From the IMG/VR virus record IMGVR_UViG_3300036766_000512, positions 1-45,608 of that record: a stretch of 45,608 bases of DNA, one strand, 5' to 3'. The DNA is from a virus. Below, in pieces: positions 1-45,608 of the stretch; position 1 is the stretch's first letter, and the number at the start of each line of letters is the position of its first letter. Under the pieces are notes generated by a model, which ran no database searches, had not been told where the DNA came from, and saw only the letters and a program-made list of their open reading frames with translations. Both the position numbers and the translations under genes were made by a program.

Positions 1-16
1 GGTTTCCCGAGCGGGA

Positions 17-277
17 TCACGGTGTCAGGTCCTCCCGCAGCGAGTCCCGCAGCGAGTTATGCAGCGAGGCCCCCAGCGAGGCATACAGCGAGGCCCCCAG
101 CGAGATATCCAGCGAGACATACAGCGAGTCCCCCATCGGGACCCACAGCGAGTTGTTCAGCGAGGCCCCCAGCGAGGCATCCAGCGAGGCCAGCAGCGAG
201 GCCCGCAGCGAGGCCCCCATCGAGTTATCCAGCGGGACCCCCAGCGAGGCATCCAGCGGTTTCCCGAGCGGGATCAC
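17..277 (-). CDS. xxSL tetrapeptide-repeat protein, array 1, ORF 5 (86 aa)
   Basis: GTG start overlaps the TGA of the previous repeat ORF (GTGA). The protein is the N-cap VIPLGKPL, 18 tetrapeptides of the form xxSL (variants VP-L and xxSM occur), then the C-cap REDLTP. A GGAGG lies ten bases before the GTG. Its own TGA (17-19) overlaps another GTG at 18-20 whose ORF runs off the left edge; on a circle this is the ORF at 45383-45595. No signal peptide or membrane segment is evident and the function is unknown. Expression is inferred from gene structure only. Confidence 0.6.
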   Translation of the reverse strand: MIPLGKPLDASLGVPLDNSMGASLRASLLASLDASLGASLNNSLWVPMGDSLYVSLDISLGASLYASLGASLHNSLRDSLREDLTP

Positions 278-522
278 GGTGTCAGGTCCTCCCGCAGCGA
301 GTTATCCAGCGAGACATGCAGCGAGTCCCGCAGCGAGGTCCGCAGCGAGCCCCCCAGCGAGCCCCACAGCGAGGCATCCAGCGAGGCCCCCAGCGAGGCC
401 CCCATCGAGGCCAGCAGCGAGGCCCCCAGCGAGGCCAGCAGCGAGGCCCCCAGCGAGTTATCCAGCGAGGCATCCAGCGAGACATACAGCGAGTCCCCCA
501 GCGGCTTCCCGAGCGGGATCAC
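274..522 (-). CDS. xxSL tetrapeptide-repeat protein, array 1, ORF 4 (82 aa)
   Basis: Same design as its neighbours: GTG start in a GTGA overlap, N-cap VIPLGKPL, 17 tetrapeptides, C-cap REDLTP, TGA. The 3' portion (DNA 253-373, spanning its last seven tetrapeptides and the next junction) is identical over 121 bp to 2608-2728 in array 2, so the two loci have exchanged sequence recently. This is the only block whose N-cap proline-leucine junction carries a synonymous change (AAG for the Lys codon). Function unknown. Confidence 0.6.
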   Translation of the reverse strand: MIPLGKPLGDSLYVSLDASLDNSLGASLLASLGASLLASMGASLGASLDASLWGSLGGSLRTSLRDSLHVSLDNSLREDLTP

Positions 523-719
523 GGTGTCAGGTCCTCCCGCAGCGAGTCCCGCAGCGAGTCCCCCAGCGAGGCCCCCAGCGAGGCCCCCAGCGGGGCATCC
601 AGCGAGGCCCCCAGCGAGGCATCCAGCGAGGCCCCCAGCGAGCCCCACAGCGAGGCCCACAGCGAGTCCCACAGCGGGGCATCCAGCGAGGCCCCCAGCG
701 GTTTCCCGAGCGGGATCAC
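519..719 (-). CDS. xxSL tetrapeptide-repeat protein, array 1, ORF 3 (66 aa)
   Basis: The shortest full block of array 1, with 13 tetrapeptides between N-cap VIPLGKPL and C-cap REDLTP. The GTG start overlaps the stop of ORF 2 and the TGA overlaps the start of ORF 4. Units are mostly GASL, DASL, WDSL and WGSL, with two DAPL variants. Variation falls on the first two residues of each unit. No recognised domain. Confidence 0.58.
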   Translation of the reverse strand: MIPLGKPLGASLDAPLWDSLWASLWGSLGASLDASLGASLDAPLGASLGASLGDSLRDSLREDLTP

Positions 720-952
720 GGTGTCAGGTCCTCCCGCAGCGAGGCCCCCAGCGAGGCCCCCAGCGAGGCCCCCATCGAGGCATCCAGCGAGGCCCCCAGC
801 GGGGCCCCCAGCGAGGCATCCAGCGAGTCCCGCAGCGAGGCGTCCAGCGAGGAATCCAGCGAGGCATCCAGCGAGTCCCACAGCGAGGCATCCAGCGGGA
901 CCCACAGCGAGTTATGCAGCGAGGCCCCCAGCGGTTTCCCGAGCGGGATCAC
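716..952 (-). CDS. xxSL tetrapeptide-repeat protein, array 1, ORF 2 (78 aa)
   Basis: Sixteen tetrapeptides lie between the common caps; the GTG start and TGA stop sit in GTGA overlaps with ORF 1 and ORF 3. The C-cap junction reads TCTGACACC rather than CCTGACACC on the minus strand (position 961 differs from other junctions), so its neighbour's cap is conserved at protein level. Includes a DSSL and a DASM unit. Function unknown. Confidence 0.58.
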   Translation of the reverse strand: MIPLGKPLGASLHNSLWVPLDASLWDSLDASLDSSLDASLRDSLDASLGAPLGASLDASMGASLGASLGASLREDLTP

Positions 953-1125
953 GGTGTCAGATCCTCCCGCAGCGAGTCCCCCAGCGAGACCCCCAGCGAG
1001 CCCCCCAGCGAGGCATCCAGCGAGACCCACAGCGAGTTATGCAGCGAGGCCCGCAGCGGGTCCCCCAGCGAGGCCCCCAGCGAGGTCCGCAGCGAGGCCC
1101 CCAGCGGTTTCCCGAGCGGGATCAC
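949..1125 (-). CDS. xxSL tetrapeptide-repeat protein, array 1, ORF 1 (58 aa), coupled to DUF6745
   Basis: First repeat ORF of the array. Its GTG (1123-1125) overlaps the TGA of the DUF6745 gene (1122-1124), exactly the GTGA geometry used between repeat blocks. Unlike the internal starts it has no Shine-Dalgarno motif just upstream, so it probably depends on ribosomes finishing DUF6745. It has eleven tetrapeptides, N-cap VIPLGKPL and C-cap REDLTP. The coupling argues that DUF6745 and the repeat proteins are made together. Confidence 0.62.
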   Translation of the reverse strand: MIPLGKPLGASLRTSLGASLGDPLRASLHNSLWVSLDASLGGSLGVSLGDSLREDLTP

Positions 1126-2066
1126 GACTCGAACGCGAGTTGGTAGTGGTCCGGGTTCTCGATCCCAAAAGTCCAGGCCACTGCCGCCCGAGCGGTTTCG
1201 CACTCGGAGGGCACCGGCAGGTAGTAGGGCTTGAACGTGCCATCCGGTTCGGCGGTGCTATTGAACACCTTGACCACGCACACCTCGTCGCCCTCGGCCA
1301 ACCGCAGCCGGTACAACTCGCCGGTATCGTCGGCTTGCACCTTCACGGCCTTGACGGCGGTCAGGTAGCGTTCCGCGCCGAACCGATCCAGCATAACCCG
1401 CCGTACTTCGGCGTTGGGTTCGGCGGTGATCTGTTCCGGGGTGATCTGGTCGGGATGCTCGATCACATGAGCGGGCATCCGGACCCCATGCCATGCGTAG
1501 AGCGCGTACCCGTCCCCATACGCCAAGGCGGGGCCGTCCGCACAATGGAGCCGCCAGCGGGTCGGGGTGGCTTCTTCCATCCGGCAGACAGTGGGGCGGT
1601 CCATGACCACGCAGCCGTTTTCGTGGGGCCACGCCCACCCCATGTGTTGAATCTCGCTGTACTCGTCTAGCCGTTCGACATCCTCCGGCTTGAACGCCAC
1701 CCCAAGGAGCCGGGCGGTTTGGTATCGGGCAATCCAGTACACTTCCTGCGACCCCCAGAACCAGGTGGACTGATAGGTGGTGGGGGGGGCGGGGATGCTG
1801 GTGTCGGCGGGGTCCATCCCGGCCCGCCAGCGGGCCATCGCGGCGTGCGCCGCAAGTGGCCCCGAGACGACAATGGTGGGGACCGGCTCGCGGCCTGCAC
1901 GCCGGTACAACGCCGCCCAAGTGGCTTGCACCTGGGCCGGGTCACAGCGTTCCGTACTCAAGCCGACAGCTAACCAGCGGGCGCGCTCCCGCTCGATGAG
2001 CGCCAATTCCTCTGGGGTCCACGGCGCGGTGCGCCGGGTCGGGGCAGACGCCTTGGCCTTGGCCAC
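1122..2066 (-). CDS. DUF6745-type protein
   Basis: 314 aa from a GTG start two bases after the previous stop. The N-terminal third (about 15-85) is helical. An aromatic motif with WFWGSQEVYW lies near residues 100-115, and the C-terminal half carries the family-typical stretch with LHCADGPAL, LYAWHGVRMP and AEVRRVMLDRFG (about 165-240). This matches my memory of the DUF6745 family, whose biochemical role is unknown. I also recall that many members contain internal xxSL-type runs just before the aromatic motif. Here there are none, but five xxSL ORFs follow directly in the same operon. Family call confident; role unknown. Confidence 0.8.
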   Translation of the reverse strand: MAKAKASAPTRRTAPWTPEELALIERERARWLAVGLSTERCDPAQVQATWAALYRRAGREPVPTIVVSGPLAAHAAMARWRAGMDPADTSIPAPPTTYQSTWFWGSQEVYWIARYQTARLLGVAFKPEDVERLDEYSEIQHMGWAWPHENGCVVMDRPTVCRMEEATPTRWRLHCADGPALAYGDGYALYAWHGVRMPAHVIEHPDQITPEQITAEPNAEVRRVMLDRFGAERYLTAVKAVKVQADDTGELYRLRLAEGDEVCVVKVFNSTAEPDGTFKPYYLPVPSECETARAAVAWTFGIENPDHYQLAFES

Positions 2067-2068
2067 GG

Positions 2069-2416
2069 TCAGTCCATCACGCTGCGAGGCAGCAGGTCGG
2101 TGAAGGACAGCTCCCGCTGGCGCACCACCATGTACGGCAGGGCGCTGGGGGCCACGGGGGCGGGGGCGTGCTCTTGGTGCTCGACCTCGGTGAGTTGATC
2201 CACGGTCAGGTAGGTGACGCCGCCCTCATCCAAGGACAGTGTGGTGACCGTGGCCGGGGTGCTGTGGTGGTGGCCGGTGGCCTCACCATAGGCCAGCATA
2301 CAGCGGTCCTGCACAGCGGGAATGGGGGTGAGTGTGCCGGTCGGAGCCTTGTAGGCCGGATGACCGGTGGGGATGAGGAGAACGTCGCCCTGGCGCACCA
2401 GTTGAGACTGTTTCAC
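2069..2416 (-). CDS. Small conserved protein preceding DUF6745
   Basis: 115 aa, GTG start in a GTGA overlap with the 19-aa leader ORF upstream. An N-terminal QGDVLLIPTGHPAY segment and a GEATGHHHS motif near residue 45 suggest a compact beta fold with a His cluster that might bind metal. I recall similar short proteins beside DUF6745 genes, but cannot name a family. Two bases separate its stop from the DUF6745 GTG, so the two are translated together from the promoter at 2501-2529. Confidence 0.65.
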   Translation of the reverse strand: MKQSQLVRQGDVLLIPTGHPAYKAPTGTLTPIPAVQDRCMLAYGEATGHHHSTPATVTTLSLDEGGVTYLTVDQLTEVEHQEHAPAPVAPSALPYMVVRQRELSFTDLLPRSVMD

Positions 2417-2472
2417 GGGGTACCACCTTTGGTTGAAGTGTCCTGCGTGGCCATCGCCTTCAGAATGAGCAT
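2413..2472 (-). CDS. 19-aa coupled leader peptide, remnant of the RHH regulator 3' end
   Basis: A 19-codon ORF with a strong GGAGG six bases before its ATG and a TGA overlapping the GTG of the next gene. Its residues MLILKAMATQDT match MLILKALAQDT near the C-terminus of the ribbon-helix-helix protein at 4678-4845, and the promoter in front is a copy of that gene's promoter. The simplest reading is a duplicated promoter-plus-RHH unit that lost its DNA-binding part and now serves as a translation initiator for the next gene. Translation is inferred. Confidence 0.5.
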   Translation of the reverse strand: MLILKAMATQDTSTKGGTP

Positions 2473-2500
2473 CCCACGCCTCCGATGTCGAGTAAGAGAC

Positions 2501-2529
2501 AACCTACACAAGGCCCGTTATTCGCACAA
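2501..2529 (-). promoter_or_regulatory. Promoter P2 (copy of P1)
   Basis: Minus-strand TTGTGC (2524-2529), a 17-bp spacer and TAGGTT (2501-2506). The spacer and the bases after the -10 are nearly identical to P1 at 4871-4899: both contain GAATAA, GGGC and TTGTGTAGGTTGT in register. It sits between repeat array 2 and the 19-aa leader, so it should drive the DUF6745 and array 1 operon. Confidence 0.65.
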
Positions 2530-2632
2530 GGGGCAAAAGCTCCTCCCGCAGCGAGTCCCACAGCGGGTCCCCCAGCGAGCCCCACAGCGAGGCATCCAGC
2601 GAGGCCCCCAGCGGTTTCCCGAGCGGGATCAC
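2504..2632 (-). CDS. xxSL tetrapeptide-repeat protein, array 2, ORF 8 (42 aa)
   Basis: Last ORF of array 2: GTG start in a GTGA overlap, N-cap VIPLGKPL and five tetrapeptides. Instead of the REDLTP stop it reads on as REELLPLVRITGLV to a TAG that lies inside the -10 of promoter P2. The odd C-terminus shows a repeat block whose terminal junction was lost at the boundary with P2. It may be a degenerate end of the array rather than a functional gene. Confidence 0.4.
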   Translation of the reverse strand: MIPLGKPLGASLDASLWGSLGDPLWDSLREELLPLVRITGLV

Positions 2633-2865
2633 GGTGTCAGGTCCTCCCGCAGCGAGTTATCCAGCGAGACATGCAGCGAGTCCCGCAGCGAGGTCCGCAG
2701 CGAGCCCCCCAGCGAGCCCCACAGCGAGTTATCCAGCGAGTCCCACAGCGAGGCATCCAGCGAGGCCCCCAGCGAGGCCCGCAGCGAGTCCCCCAGCGAG
2801 TTATGCAGCGAGGCCCGCAGCGGGAACCACAGCGAGTTATCCAGCGGTTTCCCGAGCGGGATCAC
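2541..2865 (-). repeat. Array 2 of 12-bp repeats coding xxSL tetrapeptides
   Basis: A second cluster of the same 12-bp unit, 1.4 kb upstream (in transcription sense) of array 1, with one complete block, one junction and a terminal partial block. It starts at the TGA of the gene at 2862-3167. Long identical segments link it to array 1 (2608-2728 with 253-373) and to array 3 (2790-2867 with 45520-45597). Confidence 0.93.
2629..2865 (-). CDS. xxSL tetrapeptide-repeat protein, array 2, ORF 7 (78 aa)
   Basis: Sixteen tetrapeptides with the common caps VIPLGKPL and REDLTP. The GTG (2863-2865) overlaps the TGA of the unrelated winged-helix-like gene upstream, the same arrangement array 1 has with DUF6745. 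It is a mosaic: its first four units match the ORF at 45383 and its last seven match ORF 4 of array 1, each at DNA identity. No SD precedes the GTG. Function unknown. Confidence 0.6.
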   Translation of the reverse strand: MIPLGKPLDNSLWFPLRASLHNSLGDSLRASLGASLDASLWDSLDNSLWGSLGGSLRTSLRDSLHVSLDNSLREDLTP

Positions 2866-3167
2866 GGGAGTGTCCACACGCGGTTCAGGTTCGCGTGGCT
2901 CTTGGCCATCACCGACCGCCGCCAGCCCACCGCCACCAGTCCCGCGTGGAGCGGGACCGCGCCCAACCAACTGAGCCGTCGCCCCTCACTCGGGGGCAAG
3001 AGGCCCCGCTGGTCGGCCAGGAGCCGGAGATCGGACACGGTGATGCCGGACGCCCCGGCGCGGTGGGCCAGCTCGCGGGCGAGTGGAATCAGACGGGTGA
3101 TGAGGTCTACGTTCCGGGCGGCGGAGCGGTCGCGGGCGGCGAGGCCAAGGGTCAACTGGTCGAGCAC
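2862..3167 (-). CDS. Small winged-helix-like protein
   Basis: 101 aa from a GTG one base after the previous TAG. A longer in-frame reading exists, but its first 48 residues are antisense to the real gene at 3169-3336. Helical N-terminus, then GITVSDLRLLADQRGLL, which looks like the recognition part of a helix-turn-helix, then a strand-turn-strand region ending NRVWTLP. A small phage DNA-binding or replication-associated role is possible but inferred. Its stop is overlapped by the start of a tetrapeptide-repeat ORF. Confidence 0.55.
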   Translation of the reverse strand: MLDQLTLGLAARDRSAARNVDLITRLIPLARELAHRAGASGITVSDLRLLADQRGLLPPSEGRRLSWLGAVPLHAGLVAVGWRRSVMAKSHANLNRVWTLP

Positions 3168-3168
3168 G

Positions 3169-3336
3169 CTACGCCGCTCCCTTGGGTTTCCTGCGTTTGG
3201 CGTCTTGGATGCGTTCCTTAATGTCAGCTTCGGCGCGGTCTTTACTGGGGTACAAGGCGAGCCGGAGGGCGCGGCCCGTGACGGGTACTTCGACGACCCA
3301 CCAGCCGCCAACGGTTTCCTGAATCGTGTACGTCAC
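3169..3336 (-). CDS. Small hypothetical protein (55 aa)
   Basis: GTG start overlaps the TGA of the preceding gene (GTGA), and the stop TAG is one base from the next GTG. Residues begin MTYTIQETVGGWWVVEVP and end in a lysine- and arginine-rich tail (DAKRRKPKGAA). The predicted shape is a short beta meander followed by a charged helix. No family recognised; operon position and overlaps support it as real. Confidence 0.6.
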   Translation of the reverse strand: MTYTIQETVGGWWVVEVPVTGRALRLALYPSKDRAEADIKERIQDAKRRKPKGAA

Positions 3337-3554
3337 AGGGGTGGGTCGGTGGCGTCGCGGTACTGGTCGGCCCCGAGTTGCACGCCGGGGGGTGGGAGGG
3401 TGCGCCGCGTCACCACGATGTCAAGCACCTCGCGGGCAGGCACGGTGAGACAGCCCCATTCCGGGATGGTCCCCCGCTGTACCTCGATCTCCAGCTTGTC
3501 GAGTAAAACATTCAGGCTCGGCTCGTACCGGGCCGAGATCGTCACTTGTCTCAT
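3333..3554 (-). CDS. Small hypothetical protein (73 aa)
   Basis: The ATG at 3554 overlaps the TGA of the gene before it (ATGA), which favours this start over in-frame ATGs further upstream. The sequence begins MRQVTISARYEPSLNVLLDK and contains a mix of strands and a proline-rich end (TLPPPGVQLG). No recognised domain. It lies in the ERF operon. Confidence 0.6.
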   Translation of the reverse strand: MRQVTISARYEPSLNVLLDKLEIEVQRGTIPEWGCLTVPAREVLDIVVTRRTLPPPGVQLGADQYRDATDPPL

Positions 3555-3730
3555 GTGGCGATCCATTGGACGACCCCCACGGTCGCGCCCGCCAGGAACG
3601 CCATCCCGACCAGGACCACCCACGCCCCGATTATCCCGAGCACATGGCGGCGGGTGTCAATCGCGTACACCAAGAGTAGCGCCCCCGCCGCGATGAGGAG
3701 GAATCCGAGTGCTCCAAGGAGGGTGTGCAT
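3551..3730 (-). CDS. Two-span small membrane protein (59 aa)
   Basis: ATG start shares its A with the stop of the ERF gene (TGATG) and the stop overlaps the next ATG. Two hydrophobic stretches, about residues 4-22 and 31-55, are separated by a charged turn (IDTRRH), so it should be an inner-membrane hairpin with both ends on the same side. The role is unknown; it is far from the lysis cassette, so a holin role is unlikely. Confidence 0.6.
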   Translation of the reverse strand: MHTLLGALGFLLIAAGALLLVYAIDTRRHVLGIIGAWVVLVGMAFLAGATVGVVQWIAT

Positions 3731-4512
3731 CAGAAGGGCAACTCATCTGAGGCCAGCGCATCCGGGAAATCGTCAAACGTGTGGGGGTCGGTGTTGTCCG
3801 GCACCTTGACCGCCTTCGGTTTCGCGGTGGTTGCGCGCCCCTCCCACACCCCGAACGGCCATTGGCCGGACTTGTCTTTGCACTCGCCCAGTTTCTCCAT
3901 GCACTTGAAGTCGGGGGCCTTAGACCCCTCTACCTTGCCGAGCCGGTTGTCCCGCATCTCGCCCCCGCATTGCGGGCAGGGGGGCACCGGCCCCCGTTCC
4001 TTCTTGGGCGTCTGACTACTGGGGCCGGGCAGGCGTTCGGTCGGGAGGTCCGTGGCTTCGACCATCGCCCGCACCCGACTGGTAGGGGCCGGGGCGGCAT
4101 GGTCAGCATGGGCGGTGATCCCGCTGGCGGTGTTCCCGTCGTCATCGTCGTCAGCCACAATGGTAAACAGCGCGGCCCCTAAGCGCCGTGACCCGTAGGT
4201 GAGCAGCGCGCACCCGCCCTGGGGGTCGAGCTTGGCGAAGGGGAGCCACATGGATTCACTGAGCCATTGGCCGGAGACGTGCCAGAGGGTCGCGGTGATG
4301 TCGGCCCCGCCTGTCCCCCCGTTGTCCACCCCGAAGGTCAGGGCCAATCCGTTCGGGGCCAGGTGCGGCTTGATCGCCGCCATGATGGCATCGAACGGCT
4401 GATACAGGCTTTTCCAGTGGGGGTTGCTGGCCGACTTGGGCACCACCGCGACGGCGCTTTGGGCTTTGACCAGCGCGGGGATGATTTGGTCGAGTGCTTC
4501 ACTGTGTTTCAC
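3730..4512 (-). CDS. erf: ERF-family single-strand annealing protein
   Basis: 260 aa, GTG start at 4512 lying in a parS-like palindrome. ERF proteins bind single-stranded DNA and anneal strands in phage recombination and genome circularisation. Family signature near residues 12-60: ALVKAQSA, then NPHWKSLYQPFDAI and LAPNGLAL. A linker leads to a CPQCGG zinc-ribbon half (179-184) with more cysteines at 204 and 211. The last residues, DDFPDALASDELPF, resemble the acidic tip of bacterial SSB. It is the main recombination gene in the window and follows the RHH regulator in one operon. Confidence 0.85.
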   Translation of the reverse strand: MKHSEALDQIIPALVKAQSAVAVVPKSASNPHWKSLYQPFDAIMAAIKPHLAPNGLALTFGVDNGGTGGADITATLWHVSGQWLSESMWLPFAKLDPQGGCALLTYGSRRLGAALFTIVADDDDDGNTASGITAHADHAAPAPTSRVRAMVEATDLPTERLPGPSSQTPKKERGPVPPCPQCGGEMRDNRLGKVEGSKAPDFKCMEKLGECKDKSGQWPFGVWEGRATTAKPKAVKVPDNTDPHTFDDFPDALASDELPF

Positions 4513-4681
4513 GTGAAATCTCCTTGGCCGTCAAGACGGCTTGTAGGTGTCGAAAATTGGTATGGGTCACCACTTCGACCCCGCGAACGAGATACCGTTC
4601 CTCGACAATGGGATCAATGTGCGGGAATTCGGCGCCATCCCGTCCCATCACTGCCCGCCAGAGGCGGAGCCACCCGTTCAT
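4499..4681 (-). CDS. Small hypothetical protein (60 aa)
   Basis: Start ATG at 4681 overlaps the TGA of the RHH gene (ATGA). An upstream in-frame extension to 4845 exists but would be antisense-like out-of-frame reading of the RHH gene and is not used. Residues begin MNGWLRLWRAVMGRDG and contain a charged beta segment (VEERYLVRGVEVV). The 3' end overlaps the start of ERF by 14 bases. No family recognised. Confidence 0.55.
   Translation of the reverse strand: MNGWLRLWRAVMGRDGAEFPHIDPIVEERYLVRGVEVVTHTNFRHLQAVLTAKEISRETQ
4505..4520. promoter_or_regulatory. parS-like palindrome at the ERF start codon
   Basis: TGTTTCACGTGAAATC contains the perfect 12-base palindrome TTTCACGTGAAA and matches the well-known chromosomal parS consensus TGTTNCACGTGAAACA at 14 of 16 positions. 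It covers the GTG start codon of ERF. Binding by a host ParB or a phage repressor is inference. Confidence 0.45.
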
Positions 4682-4845
4682 GTGAGTCCGCCGGTGGGGG
4701 GCGTGTCCTGCGCCAGCGCCTTGAGAATGAGCATGCGCACCCAGGTACTCCGGGGGACACCGACTGACCGTGCCACCCGTTGCGCCTGCTGGGCGGTGCG
4801 GGTGTCGAGACTCACCCGGATGGCATCGCGTTTCTTCCGTGGCAT
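4678..4845 (-). CDS. Ribbon-helix-helix (CopG/Arc-like) regulator
   Basis: 55 aa, ATG at 4845 about 25 bp after the -10 of P1. Residues MPRKKRDAIRVSLDT form a basic arm plus a beta strand, followed by two helices (TAQQAQRVARSVGV and STWVRMLILKALAQD), the standard ribbon-helix-helix order. Such dimers bind operators through the strand. As first gene after P1 it is a natural autoregulator of the ERF operon. P2, a second copy of the promoter with a remnant of this gene's 3' end, suggests it also controls that operon. Regulatory targets are inferred. Confidence 0.7.
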   Translation of the reverse strand: MPRKKRDAIRVSLDTRTAQQAQRVARSVGVPRSTWVRMLILKALAQDTPPTGGLT

Positions 4846-4870
4846 ACACACTCAGTCGAAGGATAGGTAC

Positions 4871-4899
4871 AACCTACACAATGCCCCTTATTCTGTCAA
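4871..4899 (-). promoter_or_regulatory. Promoter P1 of the RHH-ERF operon
   Basis: Minus-strand TTGACA (4894-4899), 17-bp spacer, TAGGTT (4871-4876). The -35 lies in the last codons of the preceding gene. The spacer and downstream bases recur at P2 (2501-2529), suggesting both a sigma70-type promoter and a shared operator. Confidence 0.7.
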
Positions 4900-5118
4900 T
4901 GGGTTGGGCGCCAGCGCGCACCGTTCAGCGGTGGCTTCGAGCGCGACCCGTTCGGCCAGGGTGGCCGGGTGTCCGCAGTCGTCACAGACCCCAATGGAGT
5001 CCCGATCCGCGGCGGCAATCCATCGTGTGACGCGATCCTCGCCGGTATCGCCCCAGGCTTCGACGCGGACTGGCACGGCGGCGGAGCCGCAGGCGGGGCA
5101 GGGGACGGTGACGATCAT
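4888..5118 (-). CDS. Small zinc-ribbon-like protein (76 aa)
   Basis: Two CxxC-type pairs, CPACGS near residue 7 and CDDCGH near residue 46, are the arrangement expected for one zinc ribbon. The start overlaps the stop of the previous gene (ATGA). It ends in PNPLTE, with the last codons lying on the -35 element of P1. Function unknown; nucleic-acid or protein binding would be usual for such ribbons. Confidence 0.6.
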   Translation of the reverse strand: MIVTVPCPACGSAAVPVRVEAWGDTGEDRVTRWIAAADRDSIGVCDDCGHPATLAERVALEATAERCALAPNPLTE

Positions 5119-6270: not shown

Positions 6271-6944
6271 GCGGCACCGCAGAGATGTTGGGTGGGGGGC
6301 GCGGGGAGCAGTCCGTCGTCGTAGGCGCGGAGCCGGGCACCTTGCCAGTCGCGCTCCGCCACCCAACTCGCCGCCTCCGCCACCCAACTCGCCGCCTCCG
6401 TCACCCCACTCGCCCACCTCGCCACACTCGCCCACCTCGCCGCCTCCTCCGCCGCGTACCCCGCCGCCTCCGCCGCCCACCCCGCCGCCCTCGCCACCGC
6501 CTTCGCCGCCCTCGCCGCCGCCACCGCCCCACTCGCGCCACTCACCCAACCCGCCCCCCTCGCCGCCTCCGCCCTCGCCGCCTCCGCCATCCGGGTGCGT
6601 GCCGTGGTGAGGTTGCCGGGGGCGCCGAGTTGAATAGCGGCGTACTGTCGTGCCGCCTCGATTGCCAGCCGGGGGCGGGGGTCGGTGGGGTGTCGTTGTT
6701 CGTAGAGGTGCAGGACGTGCTCGGCGCAGTCGGCGGCGAACAGCCGGGCAATGGGGGCGTCGTCGCCGAGCACCCGTAGCGCCCAGGTCGCGTGATCGAG
6801 GCCGTTACTGTCGAGGATGTGGGCGAGCGGAAACGGGGTGTTGAGATCGAGCCCTGGGAGGGAATCCCGGAGGATGCGCCATCCCTCGACGCAGGGACCA
6901 TGCGCCTTGATGGCGGCGAGCGTGGTAGTGAGGGGCGTGGTCAT
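6267..6944 (-). CDS. Ala-rich repeat protein of phage accessory regions
   Basis: 225 aa; ATG 6944 overlaps the preceding TGA (ATGA), so the longer in-frame reading up to 7154 is rejected. Residues 1-105 hold a conserved-looking head (MTTPLTTTLAAIKAHGPCVEGW, then ILDSNGLDHATWALR) that I recall from many phage and bacterial hypothetical proteins. The rest is a repeat tract of AAxxAxWxAE-like units (AASWVAEAASWVAE) that would form long helices with periodic tryptophans. The DNA is correspondingly repetitive at 6370-6590. Function unknown. Confidence 0.65.
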   Translation of the reverse strand: MTTPLTTTLAAIKAHGPCVEGWRILRDSLPGLDLNTPFPLAHILDSNGLDHATWALRVLGDDAPIARLFAADCAEHVLHLYEQRHPTDPRPRLAIEAARQYAAIQLGAPGNLTTARTRMAEAARAEAARGAGWVSGASGAVAAARAAKAVARAAGWAAEAAGYAAEEAARWASVARWASGVTEAASWVAEAASWVAERDWQGARLRAYDDGLLPAPPTQHLCGAA

Positions 6945-8991: not shown

Positions 8992-9366
8992 CTAGGCAGT
9001 CACGACGGCGCGGGGTGCCACGCTGGCGCCCGCTCTCACGCTGGCGGTCGCTCTCACGACGGCCCTCTTCCCCACGGTGGCGCCCACACCCACGACGGCC
9101 CTCTCCCCCACGACGGCCCTCTTCCCCACGAAGGCGCCCGCTCCCACGGTGGCGCCCACCCCCACGACGGCCCTCTTCCCCACGAAGGCGTACCCTCTTA
9201 CGACGGCGTACTCTCCCACGGTGGCGCCCCGCTCCACGACGGCGTCCCGCTCCACGTTGGCGTACTTCCCCACGAAGGCGCCCGCTCCCACGCTGGCCCA
9301 CGCCCCCACGCTGGCGGTCGGGTGGATAAAGGCGGTCGGGTGGACTGTGGCGGTCGGATCAATCAT
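8992..9366 (-). CDS. Hexapeptide-repeat left-handed beta-helix protein
   Basis: 124 aa, ATG 9366 preceded by AGAGGGTAAGG. After MIDPTATVHPTAFIHPTAS the protein is nearly all hexapeptides of the form [V/A]G.[G/K]A.V (AFVGKRAVVGVGATVG), the signature of left-handed parallel beta-helices as in acyltransferase domains. About 18 hexads make roughly six coils. The DNA has an 18-bp period to match. No acyltransferase catalytic His or extra domain is visible, so a structural, binding or mimicry role is as likely as enzymatic activity. Confidence 0.8.
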   Translation of the reverse strand: MIDPTATVHPTAFIHPTASVGAWASVGAGAFVGKYANVERDAVVERGATVGEYAVVRGYAFVGKRAVVGVGATVGAGAFVGKRAVVGERAVVGVGATVGKRAVVRATASVRAGASVAPRAVVTA

Positions 9367-9394
9367 GGCCTTACCCTCTTTCGTGAGTGTGAGC

Positions 9395-9610
9395 CTACCG
9401 GGCGAAGTGGGCTCCTGCCCCTTCGGATACCACGGCACGCCCCCGGAACGCAGGCAGGCCGGCAATGTGGTCTCGGACGGTGGCTTCCGTTGCCTGTTCC
9501 GTGAGCGGCAGGGGGAGCCACTCGGTACCGAAGAGATGAAAAACCTCTGCATCCGTTGGGTCGCGCATTTCCCAAGCGACTGCGGTGCGGCGGATCGATA
9601 GCGGGGCCAT
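9395..9610 (-). CDS. Small hypothetical protein (71 aa)
   Basis: ATG 9610, with GGAG seven bases upstream within leader copy B, so it is likely the first gene of the leftward early transcript. Residues MAPLSIRRTAVAWEMRD, FGTEWLPLPLTEQATEATV and VFRGR-like FRGRAVVS suggest a small alpha/beta domain. No family recognised. 28 bases separate it from the beta-helix gene. Confidence 0.55.
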   Translation of the reverse strand: MAPLSIRRTAVAWEMRDPTDAEVFHLFGTEWLPLPLTEQATEATVRDHIAGLPAFRGRAVVSEGAGAHFAR

Positions 9611-9616
9611 TGCCTT

Positions 9617-9668
9617 GCTCCGGGTTCAGGTTGATACCCCTCCCCTTGCAAGGCCCGTGCCGTAGGTC
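9617..9668 (-). promoter_or_regulatory. Conserved leader element, copy B
   Basis: Matches copy A (7756-7806): GCTCCGGGTTCAGGT next to the gene and CGTGCCGTAGGTC at the far side on the + strand. The same distance to the start codon and the same GGAG are kept. This copy contains the palindrome CCTTGCAAGG. A shared promoter or RNA leader is inferred. Confidence 0.55.
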
Positions 9669-9898
9669 GCAGAGAGCTAACCCGTTGTCCCGCCCCACCT
9701 TCCCACACGCCAGGCACCACATCGGGGCACCAACGCCACACTTCCGTTGTCACAATCCCGCAACACTCCACCACCAATCCCACTAATGGGACGGCAACCA
9801 CATCCCCTAACCGACGGTCAGGCACCAACATGAAGCAGTAGTAGTATGTACCACTACCCCGCTTACTCATCCTCGCACATTGCACGGACTCTCGCACC

Positions 9899-10060
9899 AT
9901 GCAAGAGCTACACCTAACCTCCTGCGGATACTGCAGTTACCCAGGGCTTGCATACTGCACGGTCTCAGGCAACCTGCACGGTGCCGCACAATGCCAGGTC
10001 ATTGCAGTGTGCGCTACCCCACCGGGAGACGATTCCGGTACCACCCGCACGACCGTGTGA
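9899..10060 (+). CDS. Possible small Cys-rich ORF (53 aa)
   Basis: ATG with no Shine-Dalgarno. The product would begin MQELHLTSCGYCSYPGLAYC and contain five or more cysteines, compatible with a small metal- or disulfide-stabilised peptide. Nothing else supports it, and it could be chance. Confidence 0.2.
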   Translation: MQELHLTSCGYCSYPGLAYCTVSGNLHGAAQCQVIAVCATPPGDDSGTTRTTV

Positions 10061-44455: not shown

Positions 44456-44755
44456 ATGATATACCTCGTCGCGTTCCTGCTGTCATTCGTGGATGAATGG
44501 GTGGCGACCAGGCGGACCCTCAGTATTGCGGATCGGTCCCCCTATGCGTGGGCGTGGGCCGCGCTGTATGTGCTGGTGCTTGGGCCGTGGGCCTATGTCA
44601 CGGTGCACAACCTCTGGACCCTGATCCCGTCCGCGATGGCGGCGGCGCTGGCGAACCGGCACGCGCTTCGACTTATGCAATCTCCCGCAATACGAAGGCG
44701 CCCCGGACCTCTTTCACCAGGAACACGGGGTACATCCAGTAGACCTCGCTGGTGA
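44456..44755 (+). CDS. Small membrane protein (99 aa), convergent end
   Basis: ATG 44456; a nearer upstream ATG opens only four codons. IYLVAFLLSFVDEWVATRRTLSI then WAWAALYVLVLGPWAYVTVH give two membrane spans; a loop DRSPY. The last 28 residues overlap the opposite-strand nuclease and look like read-through. No SD. No family named, though SFVDEWVATRRTL is a pattern I recall from small phage proteins. Confidence 0.5.
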   Translation: MIYLVAFLLSFVDEWVATRRTLSIADRSPYAWAWAALYVLVLGPWAYVTVHNLWTLIPSAMAAALANRHALRLMQSPAIRRRPGPLSPGTRGTSSRPRW

Positions 44756-45083
44756 CCTTCAGCTTCACGTTGGCATCCTCCTCCATGAACCCCCCCTTGC
44801 ACTCGTGCAGTTCCAGCATCCCATCGGGCCGCAGCACCATGAAATCCGGGCTGTACCAGGTCTTGTCGGCCAGCCGGAACTTCAGGGCCTCGAAGTAGTA
44901 GGCGGACACCCGGCCCGCATGGCGTTCCCGTTCGAGGTGGGCGGCATACCGGGATTCGAGCTTGTTCATGGTGCCCCGCACCGACCGGGAGGAGCGTCCC
45001 CGCACCAACTTGGCGCGACCTGCCGGGGTGCTGGGGCCGAGGGCGGCCTTGCCGAGCCGGGCGTAGTCTTTCAGGGAGACCAC
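44673..45083 (-). CDS. DUF1064-like PD-(D/E)xK nuclease
   Basis: 136 aa, GTG start overlapping the TAG of the upstream gene. MNKLESRYAAHLERERHAGRVSAYYFEALKFRLADKTWY, then SPDFMVLRPDGMLELHECKGGFM: D in YSPDF and E-x-K in ELHECKGG are the nuclease residues. Matches DUF1064 as I remember it. Likely acts in recombination or host-DNA handling; last gene of the leftward block. Confidence 0.8.
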   Translation of the reverse strand: MVSLKDYARLGKAALGPSTPAGRAKLVRGRSSRSVRGTMNKLESRYAAHLERERHAGRVSAYYFEALKFRLADKTWYSPDFMVLRPDGMLELHECKGGFMEEDANVKLKVTSEVYWMYPVFLVKEVRGAFVLREIA

Positions 45084-45382
45084 TACCGGACCTGTCGGGC
45101 GGCGACTTCATGGGCGCGCAGGCAGTCGGCCAGCCACCCAGGGGTCCGGGCCTTCTGTCGCCCCTTCTCGATGGCGGAGAGCGCGGCTTGGGTCACCCGG
45201 AAGTACCCGTCCGCGGTGTCCCCGAGAAAGATCACGGGGAGGGCGTAGGCGCGGAGGCGGTCAATACGCCGCTGGTAGTAGCCCAGCGCCCGCGCTCGGT
45301 AGGTGATGGGGGTGAGTACGTCGTGTGCGGTCATGGGTGATTCCAGTCTCGGTTCATGGTTTTTGACGTTCGTTGGCGACAT
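45083..45382 (-). CDS. Hypothetical protein between array 3 and nuclease (up to 99 aa)
   Basis: Two possible ATGs: 45382, directly after the TAA of the repeat ORF, or 45334 (MTAHDVLTPITYRARALG). Neither has a strong SD. ALGYYQRRIDRLRAYALPVIFLGDTADGYFRVTQAALSAIEKGRQ contains a turn-helix pattern like XRE-family cores. A DNA-binding role is possible. It is directly downstream of repeat array 3. Confidence 0.55.
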   Translation of the reverse strand: MSPTNVKNHEPRLESPMTAHDVLTPITYRARALGYYQRRIDRLRAYALPVIFLGDTADGYFRVTQAALSAIEKGRQKARTPGWLADCLRAHEVAARQVR

Positions 45383-45595
45383 TTACGGCGTATGTCGTGG
45401 GGTTAAATCCTCCCCCAGCGAGTCCCCCAGCGAGCCCCCCAGCGAGACCCCCAGCGAGGCCCCCAGCGAGCCCCACAGCGAGGCATCCAGCGAGGCATCC
45501 AGCGAGGCCCACAGCGAGACCCCCAGCGAGTTATGCAGCGAGGCCCGCAGCGGGAACCACAGCGAGTTATCCAGCGGTTTCCCGAGCGGGATCAC
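45383..45595 (-). CDS. xxSL tetrapeptide-repeat protein, array 3, ORF 6 (70 aa)
   Basis: N-cap VIPLGKPL, thirteen tetrapeptides, then GEDLTPRHTP and TAA in place of REDLTP-TGA, consistent with being the last repeat ORF of the series. The first four units are DNA-identical to ORF 7 of array 2 (45520-45597 with 2790-2867). On a circle its GTG is the one at 18-20, overlapping the stop of ORF 5. ATG of the next gene follows the TAA without a gap. Confidence 0.58.
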   Translation of the reverse strand: MIPLGKPLDNSLWFPLRASLHNSLGVSLWASLDASLDASLWGSLGASLGVSLGGSLGDSLGEDLTPRHTP

Positions 45596-45608
45596 GGTGT
45601 CAGGTCCT
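45407..45608 (-). repeat. Array 3 of 12-bp repeats, continuous with array 1 if circular
   Basis: Same 12-bp units as arrays 1 and 2 up to the right edge. The last 33 bases repeat the first 33 of the window. If ends join, arrays 3 and 1 form one run of about 1.3 kb with six coupled repeat ORFs after DUF6745. Confidence 0.93.
45576..45608. repeat. 33-bp terminal direct repeat (matches 1-33)
   Basis: Identical to positions 1-33. It may show that the contig is a closed circle. But the same sequence recurs at the other array junctions (from 259, 702, 935 and 2614), so an assembler could have broken here. Confidence 0.9.

Follow-up and report, generated by a model that had tools for sequence, protein, structure and literature searches.

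Free-standing tetrapeptide-repeat microproteins encoded beside a DUF6745 gene without an internal repeat run in a phage genome

TALE and PPR proteins present two hypervariable residues in each 34- to 35-residue unit of an otherwise constant scaffold, and pentapeptide-repeat proteins, some of which are phage or defense related, are built from short-period repeats (period 5) that form a beta-helix. Here, we describe chains of phage microproteins encoded next to a DUF6745 gene in the IMG/VR virus record IMGVR_UViG_3300036766_000512, which was analyzed at its full length of 45,608 bases (the window; its source is referred to below as this phage). The microproteins resemble TALE and PPR proteins in that a scaffold carries two variable residues per unit, but their units are only 4 residues long and nucleic acid binding is not indicated; to our knowledge, they have no sequence relation to either family. 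They share a short period with the pentapeptide repeats and differ from them in having a period of 4 and a weakly predicted helical fold; no Pfam family, pentapeptide repeats included, matched the repeats above its cut-off.

The closest described proteins are members of the DUF6745 family itself. Those with an internal repeat run (for example, L011, L020, L031 and L032) have in common with the system of this phage the core, the N-terminal domain, the xx[SQ][LV] scaffold and a unit vocabulary of W/R/G/D plus A/D/G/S, but they contain one internal segment of 12 to 50 units, whereas this phage encodes several separate, capped open reading frames (ORFs). Among the PHROGs families, phrog_33514 and phrog_5189 weakly match xxQV microproteins of two other phages, L198 (E = 3.5e-4) and L184 (E = 2.4e-3), respectively, and a small number of these ORFs may thus be present in catalogues already, as unannotated families; neither has an annotated function or link to DUF6745, the microproteins of this phage were unmatched, and low complexity weakens the matches. 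The open-access literature yielded no paper naming DUF6745 and none in which such strings of repeats are described in a pertinent setting. Within the reach of these tools, the split architecture is undescribed and categorically new, with a core protein from a catalogued family; the original prediction, made from the sequence of the window, likewise knew of no description of the layout.

DUF6745 and the repeat arrays of this phage

Profile searches identify the record as a phage with a terminase and a P22-like portal, and the entire DUF6745/repeat-ORF system lies on the minus strand (Table 1). The DUF6745 ORF (2066-1122) matches PF20530 with 187.7 bits (cut-off 27; E = 2e-55). In proteins of this family, a repeat rod links an N-terminal domain to a conserved core (WxGxxExYWIAxY); the internal run, 12 to 50 units of xxSL, xxQV, xxQL or xxSV, occupies this one fixed place between the two. 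Run-bearing homologues were found in diverse IMG/VR phages, in Mycobacterium phage prophiGD102-1 (a prophage; gp38, L031) and a Manatee Spring phage (L032) and, among bacteria, in a Singulisphaera genome (a planctomycete, L045) and a Hyphomicrobiales genome (L113). The DUF6745 protein of this phage keeps both ends and has ~30 nonrepetitive residues in place of the run; the median number of residues ahead of the core is 230 in copies with an internal run versus 96 in split copies, that is, those with the repeats outside the protein. Most actinobacterial and the Obscuribacterales homologues examined possess no strict run, so the statement about internal runs holds only for the phage branch and for some bacteria. 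Within that branch, the premise of the original prediction, that DUF6745 proteins carry internal xxSL-type runs that this copy is missing, proved right. The DUF6745 protein of Microcystis phage Ma-LMM01 gp174 and its relatives (L270, 3935-5071) also has no tetrapeptide run.

Downstream of DUF6745 lies array A. Its microproteins 1 to 5 each comprise a VIPLGKPL N-cap, 11 to 18 xxSL units and a REDLTP C-cap followed by TGA. The predicted GTGA overlap between the DUF6745 stop and the first repeat ORF is present at GTG 1125, and the same overlap indeed joins the successive ORFs, five of which are complete. At every internal array junction, GGAGG is located 10 nucleotides (nt) ahead of the next GTG, because the REDLTP cap is written as CGGGAGGAC.... 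A sixth ORF begins within the 33-bp overlap between the record ends, so that array A crosses these ends, and finishes in a TAA that directly abuts the ATG of the next gene (45382-45083). In a second array, B (2865-2504), the first ORF overlaps the stop of an unrelated 149-amino-acid (aa) ORF (3311-2862), again as GTGA. Segments have been exchanged between the two arrays: the last 30 aa of microprotein 4 of array A (522-274) are identical to the last 30 aa of the array B ORF 2865-2629. The repeat period is exactly 12 bp, or 4 residues. The third codon bases of x2, S and L are the same in all 109 units, whereas x1 and x2, the first two residues of the unit, vary; SL is replaced by PL or PM in 10 units and by SM or PM in 4.

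The only end repeat of the record is 33 bp long (1-33 = 45576-45608) and lies inside a repeat cassette, so the apparent circularity could stem from the array itself. The operon reads sensibly over this join, from array A through TAA-ATG into the next gene. Many other viral contigs start or end within a DUF6745 repeat (L149, L153, L154, L157, L161, L166, L173, L186, L015, L023/L030 and others), so such phages are probably underassembled in short-read metagenomes. It is nonetheless hardly credible that misjoined repeats and false contig ends account for the layout as an assembly artifact. The end overlap within a cassette and the contigs that break inside the repeat speak for this explanation, and the copy number and the join over the record ends could still be wrong; against it, the cassettes are not identical copies, the contig fully encloses array B and five of the array A ORFs, and the architecture is repeated in independent contigs that come from other samples.

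Recurrence of the split state in other phages

The family alignment, used to scan IMG/VR, detected 80 loci. Most of the full-length DUF6745 ORFs among them carry an internal run, and the run-less loci often have free-standing 12-bp arrays beside the gene. In the xx[QS][VL] frame, these arrays form ORFs of ~45 to 115 aa with short caps. At least 10 other clusters of DUF6745 phages, distantly related or unrelated to this phage, possess no internal run and have free-standing xxQV, xxSV, xxQL or xxAL ORFs beside DUF6745; in these split phages, the repeat ORFs lie on the DUF6745 strand and are mostly joined by ATGA, GTGA or other short overlaps. For example, L198 encodes a row of VS(V)KNQV...QLKEDLQ-type ORFs joined by GTGA, followed by DUF6745 and two more such ORFs, and its C-cap KED includes a ribosome site, AAGGAAGA. 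L156 encodes an ATGA-joined chain of the form MKTLGKPV...VRGIK, and in L177 and L180 ORFs reading MLGESLNNKF...QLQRDLKKC are linked by 7-nt overlaps. The layout is similar in L184, L189, L204, L206, L211, L213 and L219. Chains with 4-nt ATGA or GTGA overlaps occur in L156, L189, L198 and L211, and 8-nt overlaps occur in L184; the first microprotein overlaps the DUF6745 stop by 4 nt in this phage, L198, L204 and L213, and through TAATG in L177 and L180. Among 55 free-standing ORF starts outside this phage, a 4-nt overlap with the preceding stop was found at 24 and an 8-nt overlap at 8, counted with preference for the overlapping start where several starts were possible.

The internal run and the free-standing arrays strongly exclude each other. 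When the DUF6745 cores were clustered at 90% identity and arrays outside the gene were counted within 6 kb, such arrays accompanied 10 of the 18 clusters without an internal run versus 1 of the 48 with one (Fisher test, p = 2e-6, not corrected for phylogeny). The array of that lone run-bearing cluster is a period-6 glycine-rich repeat and was not counted as an exception. Phages of 142 to 170 kb also show clustering of the repeat ORFs around DUF6745. In G403 (156 kb), all 13 repeat ORFs are on the strand of its only DUF6745 gene and 12 of these are within 6 kb of it; G400 (170 kb) has 11 repeat ORFs near its DUF6745, with distances counted on the circle. Random uniform placement never produced equally tight clusters (100,000 and 20,000 draws). 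A low-complexity SLSV-type ORF on the opposite strand of G400 (61045-61359) is probably unrelated. In bacterial DUF6745 loci, the only scan applied, for 12-lag arrays, recognized no clear chain of free-standing ORFs.

Thus, recurrence in at least 10 other clusters and the exclusion of internal runs support the idea, put forward in the original prediction, that the repeat was moved out of the protein and multiplied as coupled chains. Loss of frame, caps or overlaps in related phages had been named there as the observation that would count against it; this was tested, and no such loss was found. An alternative interpretation is that the repeat ORFs are translated but form an independent microprotein family, with DUF6745 merely a neighbor in an early operon. 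Such a family could explain why array B follows another gene and why G403 and G411 hold several copies kilobases away from DUF6745, with other genes in between, but would not be expected to show the mutual exclusion with the internal run, the scaffold and x1x2 vocabulary common to internal runs, the direct stop/start overlap with DUF6745 in six phages, or the clustering in the 142- to 170-kb genomes. We regard this alternative as unlikely.

In a tree of 80 cores, the split state requires several changes. The placement of all split DUF6745 proteins in one clade was rejected (approximately unbiased [AU] test, p = 0.004); the grouping of this phage with the main split group was rejected more weakly (AU p = 0.033). 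These results bear on a further explanation, namely, that DUF6745 lost its run and that the pieces are pseudogene debris. The degraded cap REELLPLVRITGLV at the end of array B is what such decay would leave behind. However, all 6 of the array A ORFs, the last of which has a read-through tail, retain an intact start, N-cap, scaffold, C-cap with its ribosome site, and stop, as do dozens of ORFs elsewhere; in addition, the copies have been multiplied rather than lost, and the split state arose more than once, all of which makes debris a very improbable account.

Coding status, variation and proposed role of the repeat ORFs

With a repeat unit of 12 bp, all six frames remain open over most of their length, and gain or loss of whole units does not alter the cassette length modulo 12; neither openness nor retention of the frame is therefore by itself evidence of coding, and independent sequences are needed. 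Such sequences come from the other split phages. The N-caps read VIPLGKPL in this phage, MK[TIS]LG[KE][PS]V and MKNIGKQV in L156, MLG[KE][SPT][VL] in L177/L180 and MKSVKKQV in L204, and they can be aligned with one another: VIPLGKPL with MKTLGKPV and MKNIGKQV (L156) as well as with MLGKSV and MLGESL (L177/L180), and MKNIGKQV with MKSVKKQV (L204). The general pattern before the run, [MV]xx[LIV][GK][KEN][PSQ][LV], holds in this phage; L211 and L219 deviate from it. The scaffold is encoded by TCG-CTG in this phage, CAA-GTC in L198, TCA-GTT in L156 and GCG-CTT in L177. Because the same scaffold is written in different codons, a shared DNA motif does not explain the recurrence, and the recurrence of cap, scaffold, length and overlap over different DNA makes a purely DNA-level explanation unlikely, as it does a common RNA structure. 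The free-standing ORFs also have the same scaffold and the same x1x2 vocabulary as the internal runs. On the minus strand, an alternative frame (PRWG...) would make the SL-to-PL and SL-to-SM changes synonymous, but it was rejected, since a stop codon interrupts it where the cassette begins and no start codon is suitably placed.

These comparisons weigh most directly on the view that the arrays are a noncoding satellite, a 12-bp DNA repeat spread by recombination whose open frames and GTGA overlaps are by-products of the unit length. The largely open six frames, the automatic preservation of frame upon unit changes, the invariant synonymous sites and the swapping of segments between arrays A and B all fit a satellite. 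We nevertheless consider it quite improbable, since related caps and start/stop overlaps recur in phages with entirely different unit DNA and homologous runs are plainly coding inside DUF6745. There was also no sign of a structured RNA, with no Rfam match in positions 1 to 5000 and three cassettes folding no better than shuffled sequences (z = +1.1). Both the coding status of the repeat ORFs and their association with DUF6745 are well supported by the sequence comparisons.

The repeats vary in an ordered manner. In internal runs, the x3 and x4 codons hardly vary, x1 is mostly W, R, G or E, and x2 is mostly one of two residues (D/A, D/G or E/A) or S. In L151, L163, L170, L031 and L045, scaffold codons are invariant within the run, x1 draws mostly on W, R and G together with E or S (three or four residues in all), and x2 is often one of two residues that occur at similar frequency, almost like a small-alphabet string; we know of no mechanism that produces such a pattern in DUF6745 runs. 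The split phages are richer, with 2.6 to 3.6 bits per unit at x1 and 2.1 to 3.2 at x2, compared with 1.4 to 2.1 and 0.2 to 1.7, respectively, inside DUF6745. A diversity-generating retroelement target would be marked by a template/variable repeat pair with adenine-specific changes and by a reverse transcriptase; in this phage, the variable first base of x1 is G, C or T and almost never A, so that the variation is not adenine specific on the sense strand (no search for a reverse transcriptase was made). L177 and L180 are 98.4% identical across 2,957 bp to just past the DUF6745 stop and then diverge abruptly within the first microprotein, and in L189 and L191 the intergenic stretch is shared and the first microprotein keeps its [Q][V] scaffold, with differences at x1x2. 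From these differences, it follows that the chains change much faster than DUF6745.

Taken with the exclusion of internal runs, this sequence evidence leads us to the interpretation that the repeat ORFs are real coding ORFs in which the hypervariable repeat segment of DUF6745 has been detached and multiplied and acts in trans, which we consider probable. The rod absent from DUF6745 would be supplied in trans by the 42- to 86-aa microproteins from the same polycistronic message, with the stop/start overlaps and the Shine-Dalgarno sequence embedded in the C-cap presumably handing ribosomes from ORF to ORF. The chains would then be made and may fold as short helical rods, as a weak predicted model suggests, and would bind DUF6745, probably at the site that the rod takes in run-bearing homologues. 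In each unit, two variable residues held by a constant, probably helical [SQA][LV] scaffold could form the contact surface, and one DUF6745 platform with changeable rods might bind varying host targets in early infection, most plausibly host defense proteins; the original prediction had suggested a variable binding scaffold, a decoy or an adaptor set as possible uses. A more specific proposal, which we put forward tentatively as possible rather than probable, is that DUF6745 is the constant platform and the microproteins an exchangeable library of specificity rods that is turned over by unit and cassette recombination faster than the platform, giving each phage many specificities against changing host (probably defense) targets; each unit would contribute two variable residues from a small alphabet.

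Several observations weigh against detachment and action in trans. Of the 18 run-less clusters, 8 have no array in the stretch examined (some being cut by contig ends), and free-standing ORFs also follow a non-DUF6745 gene, as in array B, or sit several kilobases away in other phages. The tree is unrooted and quick, with many weak deep forks, so that more than one transition is evident and the direction, fission or fusion, is indistinguishable. One-base-different pairs of units in this phage include 1 synonymous and 43 nonsynonymous pairs, and because units are shuffled and homogenized, this count is unusable as a test of purifying selection. DUF6745 has no match in PADLOC, so a counterdefense role rests on plausibility. 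Finally, this record is the only one known to hold the xxSL-type chain with precisely these caps, as no close relative was found: searches of IMG/VR with the putative major capsid protein, terminase or DUF6745 detected none, and the nearest capsid protein match in GenBank phages is that of a Manatee Spring podovirus (34%). The cap-junction pattern that the original prediction had singled out as a search key, exact or degenerate, had no match in IMG/VR or GTDB genomes, and two microproteins compared by tblastn with 50,697 phage records gave no match.

Structure prediction is consistent with a helical rod at low confidence. The proposed modeling of a single microprotein (AlphaFold2) gave an all-helical structure, in which confidence was low (predicted local distance difference test [pLDDT], 64). 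A run-bearing DUF6745 protein was predicted poorly (pLDDT 57), and its significant Foldseek matches were DUF6745 proteins or one phage protein only. Among solved structures, no relative of DUF6745 was detected, and the repeats gave chance-level matches only; neither PADLOC nor NCBIfam has a family for DUF6745. A weak, low-complexity match of one microprotein to Specificity_I was ignored.

Scans for similar arrays also detected other repeats. Half of the matches of a generic SL-array scan were AARD-type repeats read on the opposite strand and were discarded, and scans for array-TGA-array patterns detected only in-frame internal runs or unrelated repeats. L012, L013, L016, L017, L019, L021, L022, L026 and L028 contain 12-bp arrays that read AARD, AAWD or SAAR on the opposite strand, and several of these ORFs have a common flank, VWCAR.VQHLM...EAT..EL. 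In L172, L222 and L227, the internal run of DUF6745 itself is SAAR/SAAW/SAAE.

The phage DUF6745 genes contain an unusually ordered hypervariable repeat: within an array, the scaffold bases are nearly invariant, whereas each unit has two variable residues that are drawn from a small alphabet. As the split state shows, this segment is able to function, or at any rate to be retained, in the form of separate chains, so that the function of the DUF6745 family can be tested in parts. It also means that phage microprotein chains of 45 to 80 aa can be recognized by their architecture where ordinary homology searches miss them. The split layout appears to be a strategy, not described before, by which phages maintain interaction modules as an exchangeable set, and if the rods do bind host defense proteins, it would be a new kind of rapidly variable counterdefense.

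Neighboring genes and other features of the record

The genes around DUF6745 belong to recombination and replication: ERF, Holliday junction resolvase-like, RecT, Bet-like, exonuclease, helicase and DNA repair genes. The early recombination/replication module of phages also houses accessory anti-host genes.

Table 1. Features of the DUF6745/repeat-ORF region (coordinates in the window)
Feature	Coordinates	Strand	Evidence or remark
DUF6745 protein, 314 aa, no internal tetrapeptide run	1122..2066	-	PF20530; alignment with run-bearing homologues
Array A microprotein 1, 58 aa, 11 units, GTGA overlap with DUF6745 stop	949..1125	-	
Array A microprotein 2, 78 aa, 16 units	716..952	-	GGAGG 10 nt before GTG
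Array A microprotein 3, 66 aa, 13 units	519..719	-	GGAGG 10 nt before GTG
Array A microprotein 4, 82 aa, 17 units	274..522	-	GGAGG 10 nt before GTG
Array A microprotein 5, 86 aa, 18 units	17..277	-	GGAGG 10 nt before GTG
Array A microprotein 6, 70 aa, ends GEDLTPRHTP	45383..45595	-	Reached over the 33-bp end overlap of the record
Array B microprotein 1, 78 aa	2629..2865	-	
Array B microprotein 2, 42 aa, degraded C-cap REELLPLVRITGLV	2504..2632	-	
149-aa ORF, TGA overlaps first GTG of array B	2862..3311	-	No Pfam or PHROGs match
115-aa ORF directly upstream of DUF6745	2069..2416	-	phrog_27831 (function unannotated)
99-aa ORF directly downstream of array A	45083..45382	-	
Holliday junction resolvase-like protein, next in operon	44673..45083	-	phrog_190, E = 4.6e-14
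ERF-like single-stranded DNA-annealing protein, upstream, same strand	3730..4512	-	PF04404; phrog_2324

Two similar intergenic stretches on the minus strand (~2396-2533 and 4770-4903) read GAATAA.GGGC.TTGTGTAGGTTGT; one precedes ORF 4851-4678 and the other directly follows array B, and they are possibly a repeated promoter. A possible truncated copy of the downstream gene (MLILKAMATQDT...) also follows array B. Elsewhere in the record, ORF 8992-9900 contains 18-bp repeats (9018-9310) that encode a hexapeptide segment of the left-handed beta-helix type (PF00132, E = 5e-11), and positions 6354-6589 hold dense, GC-rich tandem repeats of the proline/glycine type with periods of 9 to 114 bp.

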